Source: an uncultured Collinsella sp. (GTDB lineage Bacteria > Actinomycetota > Coriobacteriia > Coriobacteriales > Coriobacteriaceae). From it: a DNA stretch of 10,407 bases. The stretch lies in NCBI GenBank assembly GCA_958439775.1, contig CAUBWQ010000020.1, forward strand, positions 1 to 10,407. Direction: 5' to 3'. Shown piece after piece: positions 5,539 through 10,407 of this stretch. The stretch's first letter is position 1. Every line of letters begins with the position of its first letter. The notes under the pieces were generated by a model. The model was given only the letters and a program-made list of their open reading frames with translations, was not told the DNA's origin and ran no database searches. A program made the translations under genes and the position numbers.

Positions 5539-6195
5539 GTGAACGAGACCGTACGTCGCTTTTTGCCGATGGTCGATTTTCTGGAGCAGATACTCGGCAA
5601 AAACAGCGAAATCGTGCTGCACGATTTCTCGGATCCCGACCACGCCATCGTCGATATTCGCAACGGCATCGTGAGCGGCCGCAAGGTCGGCGGTCCCGCC
5701 ACCGATCTGGCACTCAAGATCATGCACGACGCCAAGTATCGCGACCTGCCGTTTATTACGGGCTACGAGGGGCGCGGTGCCGGCGGCAAGACGTTGGAGT
5801 CAGCGACGTACTTTATCCGCGAGAATGATGAGATCGTCGGTATGCTCTGCGTCAACACCGACCTCTCGACCGTGCGCTCCATCAACGCCATGGCGCAGCA
5901 GCTCATGGCGTGCTTCGACGCGGCGCCGACGCGCACGGAGCCCGCCCCTATCGAGGTCGAAAGCCTTTCGGAGTCTACACAGGAGCTCATCGACCGCAGC
6001 ATTGCCGAGTTGCTGAGCGCGCGCGGGCTGGATGTAGCGTCGCTTGGTCAGAGCGACCGCGTGGACGTCATTCGCCACCTCAACGGTAACGGGGTGTTCA
6101 TGCTCAAGGGCGCCGTGGCCTGCGCCGCCGCCGCGCTGGGCATCTCTGAGCCCAGCGTCTACCGCTACCTGCAAAAAGTCCGCAAGGAAGGCTAA
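5539..6195 (+). CDS. YheO-like PAS/HTH transcriptional regulator (DauR family)
   Basis: A 218-aa DNA-binding regulator with the two-domain YheO/DauR layout. Residues about 7-125 form the PAS-like sensor domain (MVDFLEQILGKNSEIVLHDF, then VGGPATDLALKIM and GKTLESATYFIRENDEIVGMLCVN in family-typical order). Residues about 147-215 form the helix-turn-helix domain, ending in KGAVACAAAALGISEPSVYRYL. The GTG start at 5539-5541 is chosen because AAAGGAG (5526-5532) sits 6 bases upstream and it begins exactly at the conserved family N-terminus; an in-frame ATG at 5398 would add 47 non-family residues. It is transcribed divergently from the permease operon, which suggests it controls that operon and perhaps itself. 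DauR of Pseudomonas represses D-arginine catabolism; the effector here is unknown, with a purine or nitrogen metabolite a plausible guess. Transcription ends at the terminator at 6240-6278. Confidence 0.9.
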   Translation: MNETVRRFLPMVDFLEQILGKNSEIVLHDFSDPDHAIVDIRNGIVSGRKVGGPATDLALKIMHDAKYRDLPFITGYEGRGAGGKTLESATYFIRENDEIVGMLCVNTDLSTVRSINAMAQQLMACFDAAPTRTEPAPIEVESLSESTQELIDRSIAELLSARGLDVASLGQSDRVDVIRHLNGNGVFMLKGAVACAAAALGISEPSVYRYLQKVRKEG

Positions 6196-6239
6196 CGAGC
6201 AAAATGGAGTGCGGCTCCACAAGCGATCCGTCACTTGAT

Positions 6240-6278
6240 AAAAGACCCTGCAGCTCGCACGCGCTGCAGGGTCTTTTT
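6240..6278. terminator. Bidirectional intrinsic terminator
   Basis: A perfect 15-bp stem (arms 6240-6254 and 6263-6277, AAAAGACCCTGCAGC and its complement) encloses an 8-base loop. It has a T-run on the plus strand (6274-6278) and an A-run on the left side that gives a T-run on the minus strand. It sits between the convergent regulator stop (6195) and ridA stop (6308), so it can end both transcripts. Confidence 0.93.
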
Positions 6279-6307
6279 GCATGTCATGTTTAGTTGTGGC
6301 CAACGCC

Positions 6308-6685
6308 TTAGAGAGCGGCAACGACCTCGATCTCGACCAGACCGCCAGCCGGAAGGGCGGCAACCTGGAAGGCGCTGCGCGCGGGGAACGGGGCCTCAAA
6401 CTTGGAGGCGTAGATCTCGTTCACAGCGGCGAAGTCGGCGATGTCGGCCAGGTAGACCGTGGTCTTGACGACATCGGCAAAGGTAGCGCCGGCAGCGGTC
6501 AGCAGGGCCTCGACGTTGGCGAGGGACTGCTTGGCCTGGGCCTCGACGCCCTCGGGCATCTTGCCGGTCGCGGGATCGATGCCCAGCTGGCCGGACAGGA
6601 ACACCATGTTGCCGGCCTGGATACCGGGGGAATACGGGCCGATGGCTGCGGGTGCGTTATCGGAAGACACGACGGTCTTGCTCAT
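6308..6685 (-). CDS. ridA: RidA family 2-iminobutanoate/2-iminopropanoate (enamine) deaminase
   Basis: A 125-aa cytoplasmic protein of the YjgF/YER057c/UK114 (RidA) family, which forms trimers and hydrolyses reactive enamines and imines such as 2-aminoacrylate to keto acids and ammonia, protecting PLP enzymes. The family length is about 125-130. Key residues seen are Y18 (AIGPYSPG), R103 (PARSAF) and E118 (GLVEIEV), matching Y17, R105 and E120 of E. coli RidA and placing it in the active RidA subgroup. The start at 6683-6685 is fixed by AAGGAG with GGAG 6 bases from ATG; the in-frame upstream extension to 6760 lies inside the leader hairpin and is rejected. It converges on the regulator gene and shares its terminator. 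It has its own candidate promoter and a stable 5' hairpin. It may serve the neighbouring nitrogen-catabolic genes or be a general housekeeping protein. Confidence 0.95.
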   Translation of the reverse strand: MSKTVVSSDNAPAAIGPYSPGIQAGNMVFLSGQLGIDPATGKMPEGVEAQAKQSLANVEALLTAAGATFADVVKTTVYLADIADFAAVNEIYASKFEAPFPARSAFQVAALPAGGLVEIEVVAAL

Positions 6686-6718
6686 GTTTTTCTCCTTACG
6701 ATCAATTGAGAGAGCGTG

Positions 6719-6766
6719 AGCGCGGTGTTCACACCGGGAGGCACAGTTCGGTCTGAACACCGCGCT
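6719..6766 (-). promoter_or_regulatory. 13-bp hairpin in the ridA leader
   Basis: A perfect inverted repeat, AGCGCGGTGTTCA (6719-6731) with its complement at 6754-6766, separated by 22 bases. If the promoter at 6775-6803 is right, it forms the extreme 5' end of the ridA mRNA, about 20 bases upstream of the Shine-Dalgarno. No T-run follows, so it is more likely an mRNA-stabilising or regulatory stem, or a DNA operator, than a terminator. Confidence 0.55.
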
Positions 6767-6774
6767 TGATTGGG

Positions 6775-6803
6775 ATAGTACTCAAGGTTTCTGTTTGATG
6801 CAA
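6775..6803 (-). promoter_or_regulatory. Candidate ridA promoter
   Basis: On the minus strand, TTGCAT (6798-6803) is followed by 17 bases and TACTAT (6775-6780). Predicted start of transcription is near 6768, directly before the 13-bp hairpin. Both hexamers are moderate matches; spacing is ideal. Confidence 0.4.
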
Positions 6804-6834
6804 GAATATTATCAGCTTGCGAGAATATTTTATC
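6800..6834. repeat. Tandem A+T-rich direct repeat upstream of ridA
   Basis: GCAAGAATATTATC (6800-6813) and GCGAGAATATTTTATC (6819-6834) are two near copies 19 bases apart, roughly two helical turns. The first copy abuts the candidate -35 box of ridA. This is a plausible activator or repressor site pair, or an UP-like element. Confidence 0.45.
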
Positions 6835-6921
6835 GCCCAACGGTTTCCCCGAACCGCTGAACGGTTCTCATGTGGAGCAGCCAGTCCAAGCTGCTGAAGA
6901 CTTTGTCCTGCTTAGGCTGCG

Positions 6922-6953
6922 GGCGTCGCCCACCGCAGCGACGCCACTATACT
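6922..6953 (+). promoter_or_regulatory. Candidate U32 operon promoter with adjacent inverted repeat
   Basis: TATACT (6948-6953) is a good -10 box 33 bases before the ATG at 6986. No clear -35 lies 17 bases upstream. That space is instead taken by an inverted repeat, GGCGTCGC (6922-6929) and GCGACGCC (6938-6945), which overlaps an alternative pair CTGCGG (6917-6922) / CCGCAG (6933-6938). The repeat could be an operator or an activator site compensating for the missing -35. Confidence 0.35.
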
Positions 6954-6985
6954 TTTGAATATCTGAGCATTTTGAAAGGCAGGAT

Positions 6986-7912
6986 ATGACCGCAACCGCC
7001 AGCCGAACCACTAACCGCAGGCCCGAGCTTTTGGCCCCCGCCGGAGGCCCGGAGCCCTTTGCCGCCGCGCTCGCCGCCGGGGCAGACGCCATCTACTGCG
7101 GCATGGGCAGCTTCAACGCCCGCCGCAAGGCAACCAACTTTACCGACGAGGCCTTTGAGCAAGCCTGCCGCGCCGCGCATCTAGCCGGGTCGCGCGTCTA
7201 CGTCACGGTCAACATCGTCATCAAGCAGTCCGAGATGGGCGATGCACTGCAGCTCATTCATCGCTGCTCCACGCTGGGCGCCGATGCCTTCATTATCCAG
7301 GACTGGGGTCTGTTCTTTGAGTCCAAGCGCACCATGCCCGGCATCGAGACACATATCTCGACCCAGGCGAACATCCACGACGACCGCGGAACCCTTTGGT
7401 GCCGTGAGCAGGGCGCCGACCGCGTGACTCTCTCGCGCGAGCTCTCCATTGACGAGATCGCCGCCATTCACGACGCCGCGCCCGATGTGGACCTTGAGGT
7501 CTTCAGCCATGGCGCCATCTGCTTTTGCTACTCGGGCCTGTGCCTGCTGTCGAGCTTTGCCATGGCGGGACGATCGGCCAACCGCGGCATGTGCGCCCAG
7601 CCCTGCCGCCTGCCCTACGAGTTGATCGACGAGAACGGTCGCGCGCTCTCCCCTGCCGGTCGCGAGCGCGCGCTGTGCCCGCGTGACACCAACACCTCAC
7701 AGCTTGTTCGCCGTCTGTATGACGCCGGCGCCGCATCGCTCAAGCTCGAGGGCCGCATGAAGGCACCCGATTACGTGTACTCCATCGTTGATGTGTATCG
7801 TCACGAAATTGACGACATGCTATCCGGAGCCGCCGTTGCCAAGGACGAGGAAGCCGCCCGCCAGCGCCAGCTCAAGCGCTGCTTCAGGACGGCACCTCGG
7901 GCGGCGAGATGA
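6986..7912 (+). CDS. U32 family protein, N-terminal fragment (RlhA-like)
   Basis: The 308-aa N-terminal part of a U32 protein. Family members such as E. coli RlhA and TrhP/YegQ are Fe-S proteins that hydroxylate RNA bases; others were called collagenase-like proteases. ELLAPAGGPEPFAAALAAGADAIY is split across residues 14-37 as the barrel's first strand. The U32 signature EVFSHGAICFCYSGLCLLSS spans 171-190. C179, C186, C203 and C207 (NRGMCAQPCR) match the four expected cluster ligands. The start ATG 6986 has AAAGG 6 bases upstream. The last eight residues after F300 (RTAPRAAR) are out-of-frame tail, ended by TGA at 7910-7912. The core barrel is complete, so some function may survive. The stop overlaps the next ATG by an ATGA, which could allow coupled translation of the second half. 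Confidence 0.85.
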   Translation: MTATASRTTNRRPELLAPAGGPEPFAAALAAGADAIYCGMGSFNARRKATNFTDEAFEQACRAAHLAGSRVYVTVNIVIKQSEMGDALQLIHRCSTLGADAFIIQDWGLFFESKRTMPGIETHISTQANIHDDRGTLWCREQGADRVTLSRELSIDEIAAIHDAAPDVDLEVFSHGAICFCYSGLCLLSSFAMAGRSANRGMCAQPCRLPYELIDENGRALSPAGRERALCPRDTNTSQLVRRLYDAGAASLKLEGRMKAPDYVYSIVDVYRHEIDDMLSGAAVAKDEEAARQRQLKRCFRTAPRAAR

Positions 7913-9456
7913 TGAGCTATGAGCGTTCCAACAACCGCGGCCAGATCGTGGGCACGGTGCTGGGCAGCCGCCCGGCCAACCGCGATGTGCGCGGCCTCAA
8001 GTCCGACGACCGCCGTCGCCGCGCCGCCATCGCCCGCATTGAGCTGTTTGAGCCCGTGGGCAAAGGCGACCTGCTGGAGCTTCGCCACGATAACGAGTTT
8101 GACCAGTTCCTGACCACCATTGCCGCCGATGATGCCGCCGCCGGTGACATCATTGAGTGCCGCGTGCCCCGTAGCATGCCCGAGGGCTGCCGCGTGCGCG
8201 TGATTCGAAGCCAGAGCGCCATTGACGCCGCCGGCGCCGCGCTCAAGCGCGATGTGCTGCGCCGCCGCGCCGTAGACGTGTCCGTTGTGGCGCGTCTGGG
8301 CGAGCCGTTTACCGTTACGCTCACCTGCTGCGACGACCCTTCGCTTACGGCCACGGCCACGGGCTTTACCGTCGAGGCTGCCAAGACCCGCGCCGTCGAG
8401 GCATCCGATCTGGTTGAGCACGTCGGGCGCATGGGCTCCTCTCCCTTTGAGGCCGCAAGCTTTGACGTTTCGCTCGACGCCGGCTGCGGTATGGGCTTTT
8501 CCGCCGTGCACAAGGTGCGCGCCGCCGCTTGTAAGGCGCTGGAAGAGGCCATTCTGGCACCGTACGAGGAGCGCGCGAAAAAGCTCGAGCTGCCGGCGAT
8601 TGTAACCAGTGATTCCCGCCCCGCGCCCGAGCACTACCGCGATGAGCCGCAGATCTGCGCCACCGTCACCTCGCTCGAGGCCGCCGAGGCCGCTCGCGCG
8701 GAGGGCGCCACGCGCATCTATATGACCACCGACGCGCTCGAGGCTGTCGGACTCTCCCCTGCCGATGCATTTGAGCAGGGTATCGTGCCCGTACTCGATG
8801 AGGTCTGCCGCGCCGTCGACCACGAGCGCGTCGATCCTTGGATCAATGCCGGAGCCACCGTCGCCGTCGGCAATATCTCCGAGCTCGCCGTAGCCGCTCA
8901 TGCCGGCGCCACGGCCGAGATTCGCTCTTGCCTGCCGGTGCATAACACGCCCTGCATGGAGGCGCTTGCCGAGCGCGGAGCCGGTGCGTTTTGGCTCTCG
9001 CCCGAGATCACGCTCGGCGAGATCGTCTCGCTTGGCACCGCCGCGCCCGCAGCCCTGGGCATCACTGTGTTCGGCCGCCCGCGCGTTATGACGAGCGAGC
9101 ACTGCATCCTGCAGGTGGCCAATGGCTGCATCCACGATTGTGCCAGCTGCCGTCTGCGCGCCCGCAAGCTGTCGCTCAAGAATATCGACGGAAAGGTCAT
9201 GCCCGTGCGCACCGACATCCATGGCCGCTCTCGCTTGTACGACGCCTACCCCATCGACCTCACGCCGCAGGTACCGCAGTTGCTCGACGCCGGCGTCCGT
9301 CGTCTTATGGTCGACGGAACCTTGCTCGAGGCCGATGAGATTGGCCGTGCCGTCGCTCGCGTCCGTCGTGCCGTCGAGGCCGCGCAAGCCGGCCGCAAGC
9401 CCGCCGCTCGCCTGCGCGGCTCCACCTCGGGCTGCATGTTTGTGGGAATTAGCTAA
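7909..9456 (+). CDS. U32 family protein, C-terminal fragment (DUF3656 and second barrel)
   Basis: The 515-aa C-terminal part of the same broken U32 gene. It opens with MMSYERSNNRG, the conserved sequence that in intact relatives lies inside the protein just after the U32 domain, so 7909 is the first usable start after the lesion rather than a native start. Just upstream in this frame, QDGTSGGE (7885-7908) is the rest of the original linker. Residues about 10-225 are the DUF3656-like region. Residues about 248-480 form a second barrel-like half with C399, C407, C411 and C414 (EHCILQVANGC, HDCASC), a second possible metal cluster. GGCGGCGAG before the ATG is a poor ribosome site, so expression would rely on coupling through the ATGA overlap. 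The gene ends 15 bases before the pseudouridine synthase. Confidence 0.82.
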   Translation: MMSYERSNNRGQIVGTVLGSRPANRDVRGLKSDDRRRRAAIARIELFEPVGKGDLLELRHDNEFDQFLTTIAADDAAAGDIIECRVPRSMPEGCRVRVIRSQSAIDAAGAALKRDVLRRRAVDVSVVARLGEPFTVTLTCCDDPSLTATATGFTVEAAKTRAVEASDLVEHVGRMGSSPFEAASFDVSLDAGCGMGFSAVHKVRAAACKALEEAILAPYEERAKKLELPAIVTSDSRPAPEHYRDEPQICATVTSLEAAEAARAEGATRIYMTTDALEAVGLSPADAFEQGIVPVLDEVCRAVDHERVDPWINAGATVAVGNISELAVAAHAGATAEIRSCLPVHNTPCMEALAERGAGAFWLSPEITLGEIVSLGTAAPAALGITVFGRPRVMTSEHCILQVANGCIHDCASCRLRARKLSLKNIDGKVMPVRTDIHGRSRLYDAYPIDLTPQVPQLLDAGVRRLMVDGTLLEADEIGRAVARVRRAVEAAQAGRKPAARLRGSTSGCMFVGIS

Positions 9457-9471
9457 CCGAAAGGCTTACAC

Positions 9472-10131
9472 GTGAACGAAGAACCTCAAGTCCTTTACTG
9501 CGACGCCTGGCTCATGGCCATCGACAAGCCCGCCGGCATGATCGTCCACGGCGACGGCACCGGCGAGCGCACGCTCACCGACTACGCCAGCGATCTGTTG
9601 CTGGCGATGGGCGACGGCTTTGCCGCGACTGACATGCAGCCGCTCAACCGCCTGGACCGCAACACCACCGGCGTGGTGTTGTTTTCGCTCGACAAACAGA
9701 CGCAGCCCGCCTTTGACCAGATGGTGATCGACCACGCCTTCAAAAAGCACTATCTGGCGCTGGCCGAGGGCAAGATCGACTGGAACGAGAAGCTCATCGA
9801 CAAGCCCATCGCCCGCGACCGCCACGATAGCCGCAAGATGCGTGTCGGCGCCAGCGGCAAGCCGTCACAGACGCGCGTGAAGGTGCTCAAGCGCCTTAAG
9901 AGCCGCCGAGGCCTGCCCGCGCGTTCGTATATCGATGTCGAGCTACTCACCGGCCGCAAGCACCAGATCCGCGTGCACCTGGCAAGCGAGCGCCATCCCC
10001 TGGTTGGCGACGACCTGTACGGCACGCCGCGTCCTTGTGGCCTCATGCTTCACGCCCACAGCGTGTCCTTCACGCATCCCGTAACCGGCGAGCACATCCA
10101 CATCGAAGCCCCCTGCCCCTGGGAGCCCTAA
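9472..10131 (+). CDS. RluA-family pseudouridine synthase (no S4 domain)
   Basis: A 219-aa RNA pseudouridine synthase of the RluA family that isomerises uridine in rRNA or tRNA. The catalytic motif is NRLDRNTTG (residues 59-67) with D62 the nucleophilic aspartate. The second conserved block is LLTGRKHQIRVHL (158-170), followed by HPLVGDDLYG (175-184). No S4 RNA-binding domain is present, so it resembles the short RluA/RluC-catalytic forms; which base is modified cannot be told. The GTG start at 9472-9474 has GAAAGG (9459-9464) with 7-base spacing. It follows the U32 gene by only 15 bases, so they are likely cotranscribed, consistent with a joint RNA-modification role. The stop TAA overlaps the left arm of the candidate terminator. 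Cytoplasmic. Confidence 0.93.
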   Translation: MNEEPQVLYCDAWLMAIDKPAGMIVHGDGTGERTLTDYASDLLLAMGDGFAATDMQPLNRLDRNTTGVVLFSLDKQTQPAFDQMVIDHAFKKHYLALAEGKIDWNEKLIDKPIARDRHDSRKMRVGASGKPSQTRVKVLKRLKSRRGLPARSYIDVELLTGRKHQIRVHLASERHPLVGDDLYGTPRPCGLMLHAHSVSFTHPVTGEHIHIEAPCPWEP

Positions 10132-10200: not shown

Positions 10201-10407
10201 TCTCGATCTGTAACAGTTAGAACCCATTTTCCGGTCTATCTGTTACAGATCGAGACAGTCGAATCCCCCTCAAGGGAAAATCTCGATCTGTAACAGTAAC
10301 TCGGCAAAATCGGTCCCAGATGTTACAGATTGAGACAAAGGAACGGCGCGGTTCGGAAGTATCTCAATCTGCAACACCTAGCCCACTTTTAACGGTCCAG
10401 TTGTTAC
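10201..10407. repeat. Alternating inverted 15-mer array with a 40-base period (runs off window)
   Basis: TCTCGATCTGTAACA and its complement alternate: forward at 10201, reverse at 10241, forward at 10281, reverse at 10321 (TGTTACAGATTGAGA), forward at 10362 (TCTCAATCTGCAACA) and reverse from 10402, truncated at the window end. Starts are 40, 40, 40, 41 and 40 bases apart. The stretches between copies are 25, 25, 25, 26 and 25 bases. Each forward/reverse pair can form a 55-base hairpin with a 15-bp stem (17 bp for the first, 10200-10216/10240-10256). The second pair is kept by a G-T wobble; the third has one A-C mismatch in the visible part. The 25-base loops share a faint core (CGGTC near the right side), while the linkers between hairpins look unrelated. 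No gene is visible here. It may be a tandem mobile repeat, a protein-binding array or a structured RNA. Confidence 0.9.

Follow-up and report, generated by a model that had tools for sequence, protein, structure and literature searches.

The window analyzed here, a stretch of 10,407 nucleotides from the Collinsella aerofaciens complex, ends in a 15-base repeat of alternating orientation, and the question raised by this locus is whether such an array is read as paired RNA, as the ends of a mobile element, as recombination sites or as double-stranded DNA bound by a protein. The first-pass annotation had described the repeat as flipping orientation from copy to copy, and this was confirmed, with five full arms starting at 10201 (+), 10241 (-), 10281 (+), 10321 (-) and 10362 (+), followed by a sixth (-) arm from 10402 of which six bases are present. 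The five arm matches found in the window at up to three mismatches compare with an expectation of 0.27, and five or more were reached in 0 of 200 shuffles. The array and its neighboring gene are arranged as follows:

9472..10131, + strand: RluA-family pseudouridine synthase gene, a neighbor outside the array
10201..10255, no strand: unit 1, a 25-bp interior between inverted arms at 10201-10215 and 10241-10255
10256..10280, no strand: linker between units 1 and 2, 25 bp
10281..10335, no strand: unit 2, a 25-bp interior between inverted arms at 10281-10295 and 10321-10335
10336..10361, no strand: linker between units 2 and 3, 26 bp
10362..10407, no strand: unit 3, incomplete at the window edge, with arm 10362-10376 and six bases of its partner from 10402

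The gene order at this locus (U32 peptidase, RluA, array, DeoR/GlpR regulator) is the same as that annotated in the C. aerofaciens record NZ_OY725717.1, and a scan for a terminator between rluA and the window array found none. Two overlapping open frames occupy the U32 peptidase region of the window (6986-9456), whereas a single gene of ~2.5 kb is annotated there in NZ_OY725717.1. Across 13 genomes, the window locus was found to carry three units in nine, and four, two, one and no units in one genome each. The array had been thought to go on beyond the window, which holds in that unit 3 is cut by the edge; judged from the orthologous loci of these 13 genomes, the array probably ends near 10416, close to that edge.

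The geometry of the repeat was determined from 120 stretches among the matches listed, each picked for a perfect unit, together with the window. The building block was found to be a 55-bp unit, TCTCRATCTGTAACA-N25-TGTTACAGATYGAGA, joined to the next by a linker of 25 or 26 bp to give a period of 80 or 81 bp; arrays usually have 1 to 4 units and the largest observed has 8. The step from a + to a - arm was 40 bp in 374 of 379 cases, while the step from a - to a + arm was 40 (138 cases), 41 (103), 39 (8) or 38 bp (1), such that 241 of 250 were 40 or 41 bp. The equality of loop and linker length reported at first is, thus, only approximate and combines two different things: a 40-bp step inside the unit and a step of 38 to 41 bp between units. 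Pure series of (+-) pairs made up 130 of the 151 arrays with two or more arms; therefore, the unit is the arm pair and not the single 15-mer. Furthermore, linkers of 25 and 26 bp were about equally common, so the units are not kept in one helical phase. The 15-mer did not prove to be confined elsewhere to isolated palindromes with variable loops: arms outside intact units were few and were mostly (i) length variants; (ii) arms cut by contig edges; or (iii) parts of units split by insertions.

The profile of 359 distinct units, WWTG-TCTCRATCTGTAACA-nnTAG-S-rich-WWW-S-rich-CTAnn-TGTTACAGATYGAGA-CAWW, revealed that bases directly outside the arms are also conserved on both sides (WWTG/CAWW and TAG/CTA), with the TG...CA more common at the outer than at the inner edges of arrays. 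A GTAG/CGTC-type head was absent from this profile. The longest inverted repeat inside the arm is 3 bp, and the folding energy of the extended arm is -0.2 to -0.3 kcal/mol. After orientation by a simple EM procedure, a weak consensus running in one direction, around TAG, TTTT and CTA, emerged from the interiors and scored 1296 compared with at most 1136 in 20 column shuffles. Relative to transcription, 52 interiors were of T-tract and 95 of A-tract orientation, counts that include orthologous repeats and are too unsafe for a claim.

Copy number and spacing of the 15-mer across genomes, a comparison proposed by the first-pass annotation, identified a genome-wide repeat of many copies and fixed spacing. 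The nearest genome, G001, was found to have 83 copies at no more than one mismatch (0 for a backwards control), with 79 arms at no more than one mismatch in G014 and 102 at no more than two in G024. Matches to the array were detected in 24 of 43 Collinsella genomes, of which 22 were dense (at least 28 matches) and two had one or two matches, with the remaining 19 having none; a subset of 24 same-genus genomes included 13 that were array-dense and 2 with one or two matches. No arrays were found in 15 genomes of other genera, and among named genomes of bacteria and archaea a scan listed at least 120 stretches, with all of the 80 titles in the matches listed being Collinsella. The paired-arm pattern was found in 0 stretches of viral contigs. 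The search against phages and plasmids, also proposed at the outset, gave no phage match for the window array and a single plasmid record, NZ_OY725717.1. This 900-kb record, labeled "plasmid 6" of C. aerofaciens TSDC17.2-1.1, encodes core enzymes and the ribosomal proteins L24 and L14, and because of these ribosomal protein genes it is taken to be, probably, a piece of chromosome deposited as a plasmid. A CRISPR does not fit the alternating orientation, the motifs common to the interiors, the lack of the paired-arm pattern in viral contigs and the lack of a phage match for the window array.

Two further aspects of the distribution were observed. One perfect unit (L044, 1505-1559) was present in G013, of an otherwise array-less species, beside a stretch that reads like a tRNA-Met gene; since its right flank resembles the flank of the G001 unit adjoining a defence island, the sequence suggests that this unit was acquired by transfer. 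In the near-complete genomes G024 and G014, array-free stretches lie opposite dnaA (G024:C1 1716.7 kb to 55.8 kb, ~585 kb; G014:C1 397.9-1036.3 kb, ~638 kb), and these count as one observation because the loci are common by descent.

The arrays were found to be intergenic, with 0 of 146 overlapping a called gene, where the calls were those of our own script (at least 60 codons and above a score cut) and weaker calls overlap some arrays. The genes on either side were on the same strand for 57 of these arrays, convergent for 50 and divergent for 39; the median distance was 61 bp to gene ends and 178 bp to gene starts. A Pfam scan of 29 neighbor proteins identified a mixture of metabolism, transport, regulators and insertion sequences, with no clear function common to these neighbors. 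Regions beside rluA homologues of array-less species were searched for the same layout built on another word, and nothing convincing was found.

The position of many arrays shortly past gene ends, together with the 15-bp stems that the inverted arms could form, would be expected if the repeat were an RNA element whose transcribed hairpins stabilize or terminate transcripts. The divergent placement of 39 arrays speaks against such a role, and a scan of the window with Rfam gave no match at gathering scores. Base pairing was examined after reducing the 359 distinct units to a non-redundant set of 121. The variable arm pairs 4/52 and 5/51 were found to pair in 70% and 51% of these units compared with 69% and 49% in shuffled columns, revealing no covariation at either pair in this set, and pairing is avoided at interior positions 23/33 and 27/29 (z of -5.0 and -7.5, respectively). 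Real units folded at -22.3 and were slightly less stable than column shuffles (-23.5, sd 0.38). Arm changes had been proposed to be partly tolerated as wobble pairs, which is not borne out: pairs 4/52 and 5/51 stand at the shuffled level, and among 148 units from arrays flanked by same-strand genes A-C (26) was about as frequent in the sense strand as G-T (33), a count that includes orthologous repeats. With no covariation in the arms, and units that fold worse than their column shuffles, base pairing is therefore not the target of selection, and we regard an RNA element as very improbable.

Orthologous units were compared to determine which parts of the sequence are retained in place. The first comparison was of units detected as such in both copies, with equal layout, alike flanks and interiors alike at 17 or more of 25 positions; it comprised 178 comparisons with each pair in both orientations, or ~89 pairs. 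Without positions 4 and 5, the arms had 0.011 differences per site, and those two positions had 0.117; the value for the variable interior was 0.073 and that for the flanks 0.121. In a second comparison, the other copy was taken by its flanks alone, and pairs more than 25% different were dropped. The 91 pairs obtained displayed 0.013 differences per site in the arms, 0.159 at arm positions 4 and 5, 0.142 in the interiors, 0.134 in the linkers and 0.064 at the linker edges, compared with a BLAST divergence of 0.053 for the flanks, which are partly coding. Thus, when anchored by flanks, the arms change ~11 times less than the interiors. The central A/T tract differed at about 0.01 in the first comparison versus 0.109 in the less filtered, flank-anchored one. 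Conservation is robust for the arms but not for the central tract, and this makes a fixed bend point doubtful. Copying between units could be part of the source of the arm uniformity. Arm position 5, where A and G replace each other, had 0.17 differences per ortholog comparison (flanks, 0.12); the G form creates GATC, and a methylation-linked hotspot is possible at this position.

The comparison of spacers between relatives, as initially recommended, hence found diverging interiors and retained arms. Amplification of an 80-base unit in which nearly all but the arms diverged had been suggested from the window, and the unit profile and the comparisons within arrays and between orthologs all agree with this description. 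Binding by a protein, the other suggestion made from the window, is supported as a possible reading by arms that are conserved in place without pairing covariation. On this comparative sequence evidence, we consider it likely that the arms are recognized at the DNA level by a putative protein.

The arrays were also examined for change in unit content. Clustering by flanks grouped 205 arrays into 58 clusters, of which 19 with at least three distinct alleles were counted. Unit number varies at 15 of these 19 loci, with ranges such as 1 to 5 and 2 to 8. In G009 the window locus lacks the middle unit, and in G010 two unrelated units replace its third; one array (L144) has a tandem pair of near-identical units. 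By comparison, 17 of 21 G024 arrays lie beside a G001 array with at least one matching flank, and both flanks match in 11. Of the remaining G024 arrays, two (one IS21-split array) are at the place of a damaged G001 arm, one has its flank in G001 with no array nearby, and one is outside the fetched stretches. Judged by these flanks and units, the position of an array is old and its unit content young.

Mobile DNA was detected inside several arrays. A 4.3-kb element with a gene for a 346-aa tyrosine recombinase lies inside the right arm of a G024 unit (L202 5255-9590; G024:C1 ~1712.3-1716.6 kb); the uninterrupted allele is L166, and the element is at the same locus in G018 and, with stops in the recombinase gene, in G009. 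A defence island in G001 (L268 ~13359-22020; G001:C6 761.36-770.02 kb), which includes an ABC-three-component part, a type II restriction endonuclease with dcm and a Phd/YefM-RelE pair, is located between array units, and three other strains have a 4-unit array in its place. Copies of the IS21 family were observed inside units at different unit positions (L190 ~5770-8165 and L198 ~7041-11686), with a 4-bp duplication at one and with the L198 copy itself split by another insertion. The tyrosine recombinase element, the island between units and the turnover in whole units are what would be seen if the arms were recombination or attachment sites, read by a site-specific recombinase that gives rise to unit-by-unit exchange and to islands. 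Strong matches to the recombinase, however, were confined to 4 of the 13 array-dense genomes; one of these matches has stops and another is not near an array. The recombinase was rejected as a general partner, and homologous recombination between units suffices for the turnover. An attachment-site function is, thus, improbable.

The first-pass annotation recognized no named element with this layout, and here known systems provide a correction. In the portion of PMC2817692 available to us, BIMEs, including the REP clusters of Xanthomonas campestris, are described as extragenic, regularly spaced and of alternating orientation, with a number that varies per cluster; the X. campestris REPs combine a GTAG-type head with an internal palindrome, and their transposase genes are REP-flanked. 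As far as that text extends, the Collinsella arrays resemble BIMEs in being extragenic, of many copies, regularly spaced and alternating, and differ in that the repeat has neither an internal palindrome nor a GTAG-type head and that no arm-flanked transposase was found in G001 or G024. The arrays are BIME-like in layout, and membership in the REP, BIME or REPIN groups is not claimed. REPINs, according to the available part of PMC3116915, are inverted pairs of a conserved 15- to 16-mer around a variable spacer, with some tandem clusters of nearly identical copies. The Collinsella unit is likewise an inverted pair of conserved words around a variable interior; unlike what that part describes, its interiors differ strongly within an array, its spacing is fixed and pairing is not maintained. 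With respect to the hairpin that REPINs form as REP doublets, the arms are complementary by sequence, yet they do not covary and pairing in the interior is avoided. The dRS3/RS arrays of Neisseria are intergenic, with a short inverted word flanking variable segments and mobile elements integrating there. Those segments are longer and of variable length, whereas the Collinsella period is fixed at 80/81. A literature search by title and beginning of abstract, with subscription papers mostly outside its scope, found no description of the Collinsella repeat, and the texts of PMC8040213 and PMC12306157, searched for Collinsella, had nothing on it.

The main rival to protein binding in the service of the host is a selfish element of REPIN or MITE type, in which the unit represents the paired ends, moved in trans by a transposase whose reading of the arms keeps them conserved, with arrays and unit exchange as by-products. 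Paired inverted words around a variable interior, in many intergenic copies, are like REPINs (available part of PMC3116915), the excess of TG...CA at outer array edges is also consistent with this origin, and of 24 same-genus genomes 22 have Y1 transposases. In G001 and G024, however, 1 of the 10 Y1 genes is no more than 1 kb away from an arm, an IS200/IS605 tnpA beside a damaged array, and no arm-bracketed gene was detected in the loci scanned. The 17 of 21 G024 arrays with a G001 counterpart indicate that loci move little, and arms are retained in copies at fixed loci, although spent copies would be free to lose them. Y1 transposases were rejected as the partner of the arms, being present in genomes with and without arrays and not arm-flanked in G001 or G024. 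Three 9-kb G024 loci around non-IS200 Y1 genes had no arm better than three mismatches, and a search of the loci scanned for an autonomous element with arm ends, in which the termini of an IS256 in L266 were also inspected, revealed nothing convincing. The single allele inspected for an empty site (L221) was also without the flank, in a search that covered few loci. We judge the selfish reading unlikely overall; a REPIN- or MITE-like beginning may nevertheless be true of the origin of the arrays even if their present role serves the host.

The reading that we favor, tentatively and at somewhat less than even confidence for the whole, is of intergenic arrays of double-stranded DNA sites for a putative protein dimer, with a BIME-like structuring or boundary role. 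The 55-bp unit would be the recognition site, composed of two inverted, non-palindromic half-sites exactly 40 bp apart, each an extended motif of about WWTG-TCTCRATCTGTAACA-nn-TAG, around a short A/T tract. A putative sequence-specific protein would read this unit as a dimer and would probably bend the DNA at the A/T tract. Arrays between transcription units would then act as local chromosome-structuring or boundary sites, the likeliest role but the weakest step of the proposal and a rather doubtful one, with units presumably gained, lost and exchanged singly by recombination. A bolder version, which we consider speculative and less likely still, is a new boundary or nucleoid-organizing system: in each chromosome, some 20 fixed loci between operons would carry arrays of dimeric sites for a dedicated putative protein, with half-sites selected by the host, a fast-evolving unit number that may tune local strength, and a dense presence in only one part of a gut genus. 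The dedicated protein of such a system would perhaps be a domesticated transposase, each monomer of which has two DNA-binding domains.

The host role of BIME-like arrays is an old open question, and in the Collinsella arrays recognition by base pairing can be separated from recognition of double-stranded DNA sequence. The arrays, in addition, indicate where mobile islands land. Furthermore, the combination of arms conserved in place and unit numbers that differ among close relatives provides a natural dose series, usable in a common gut commensal for effects on expression, supercoiling and chromosome folding.
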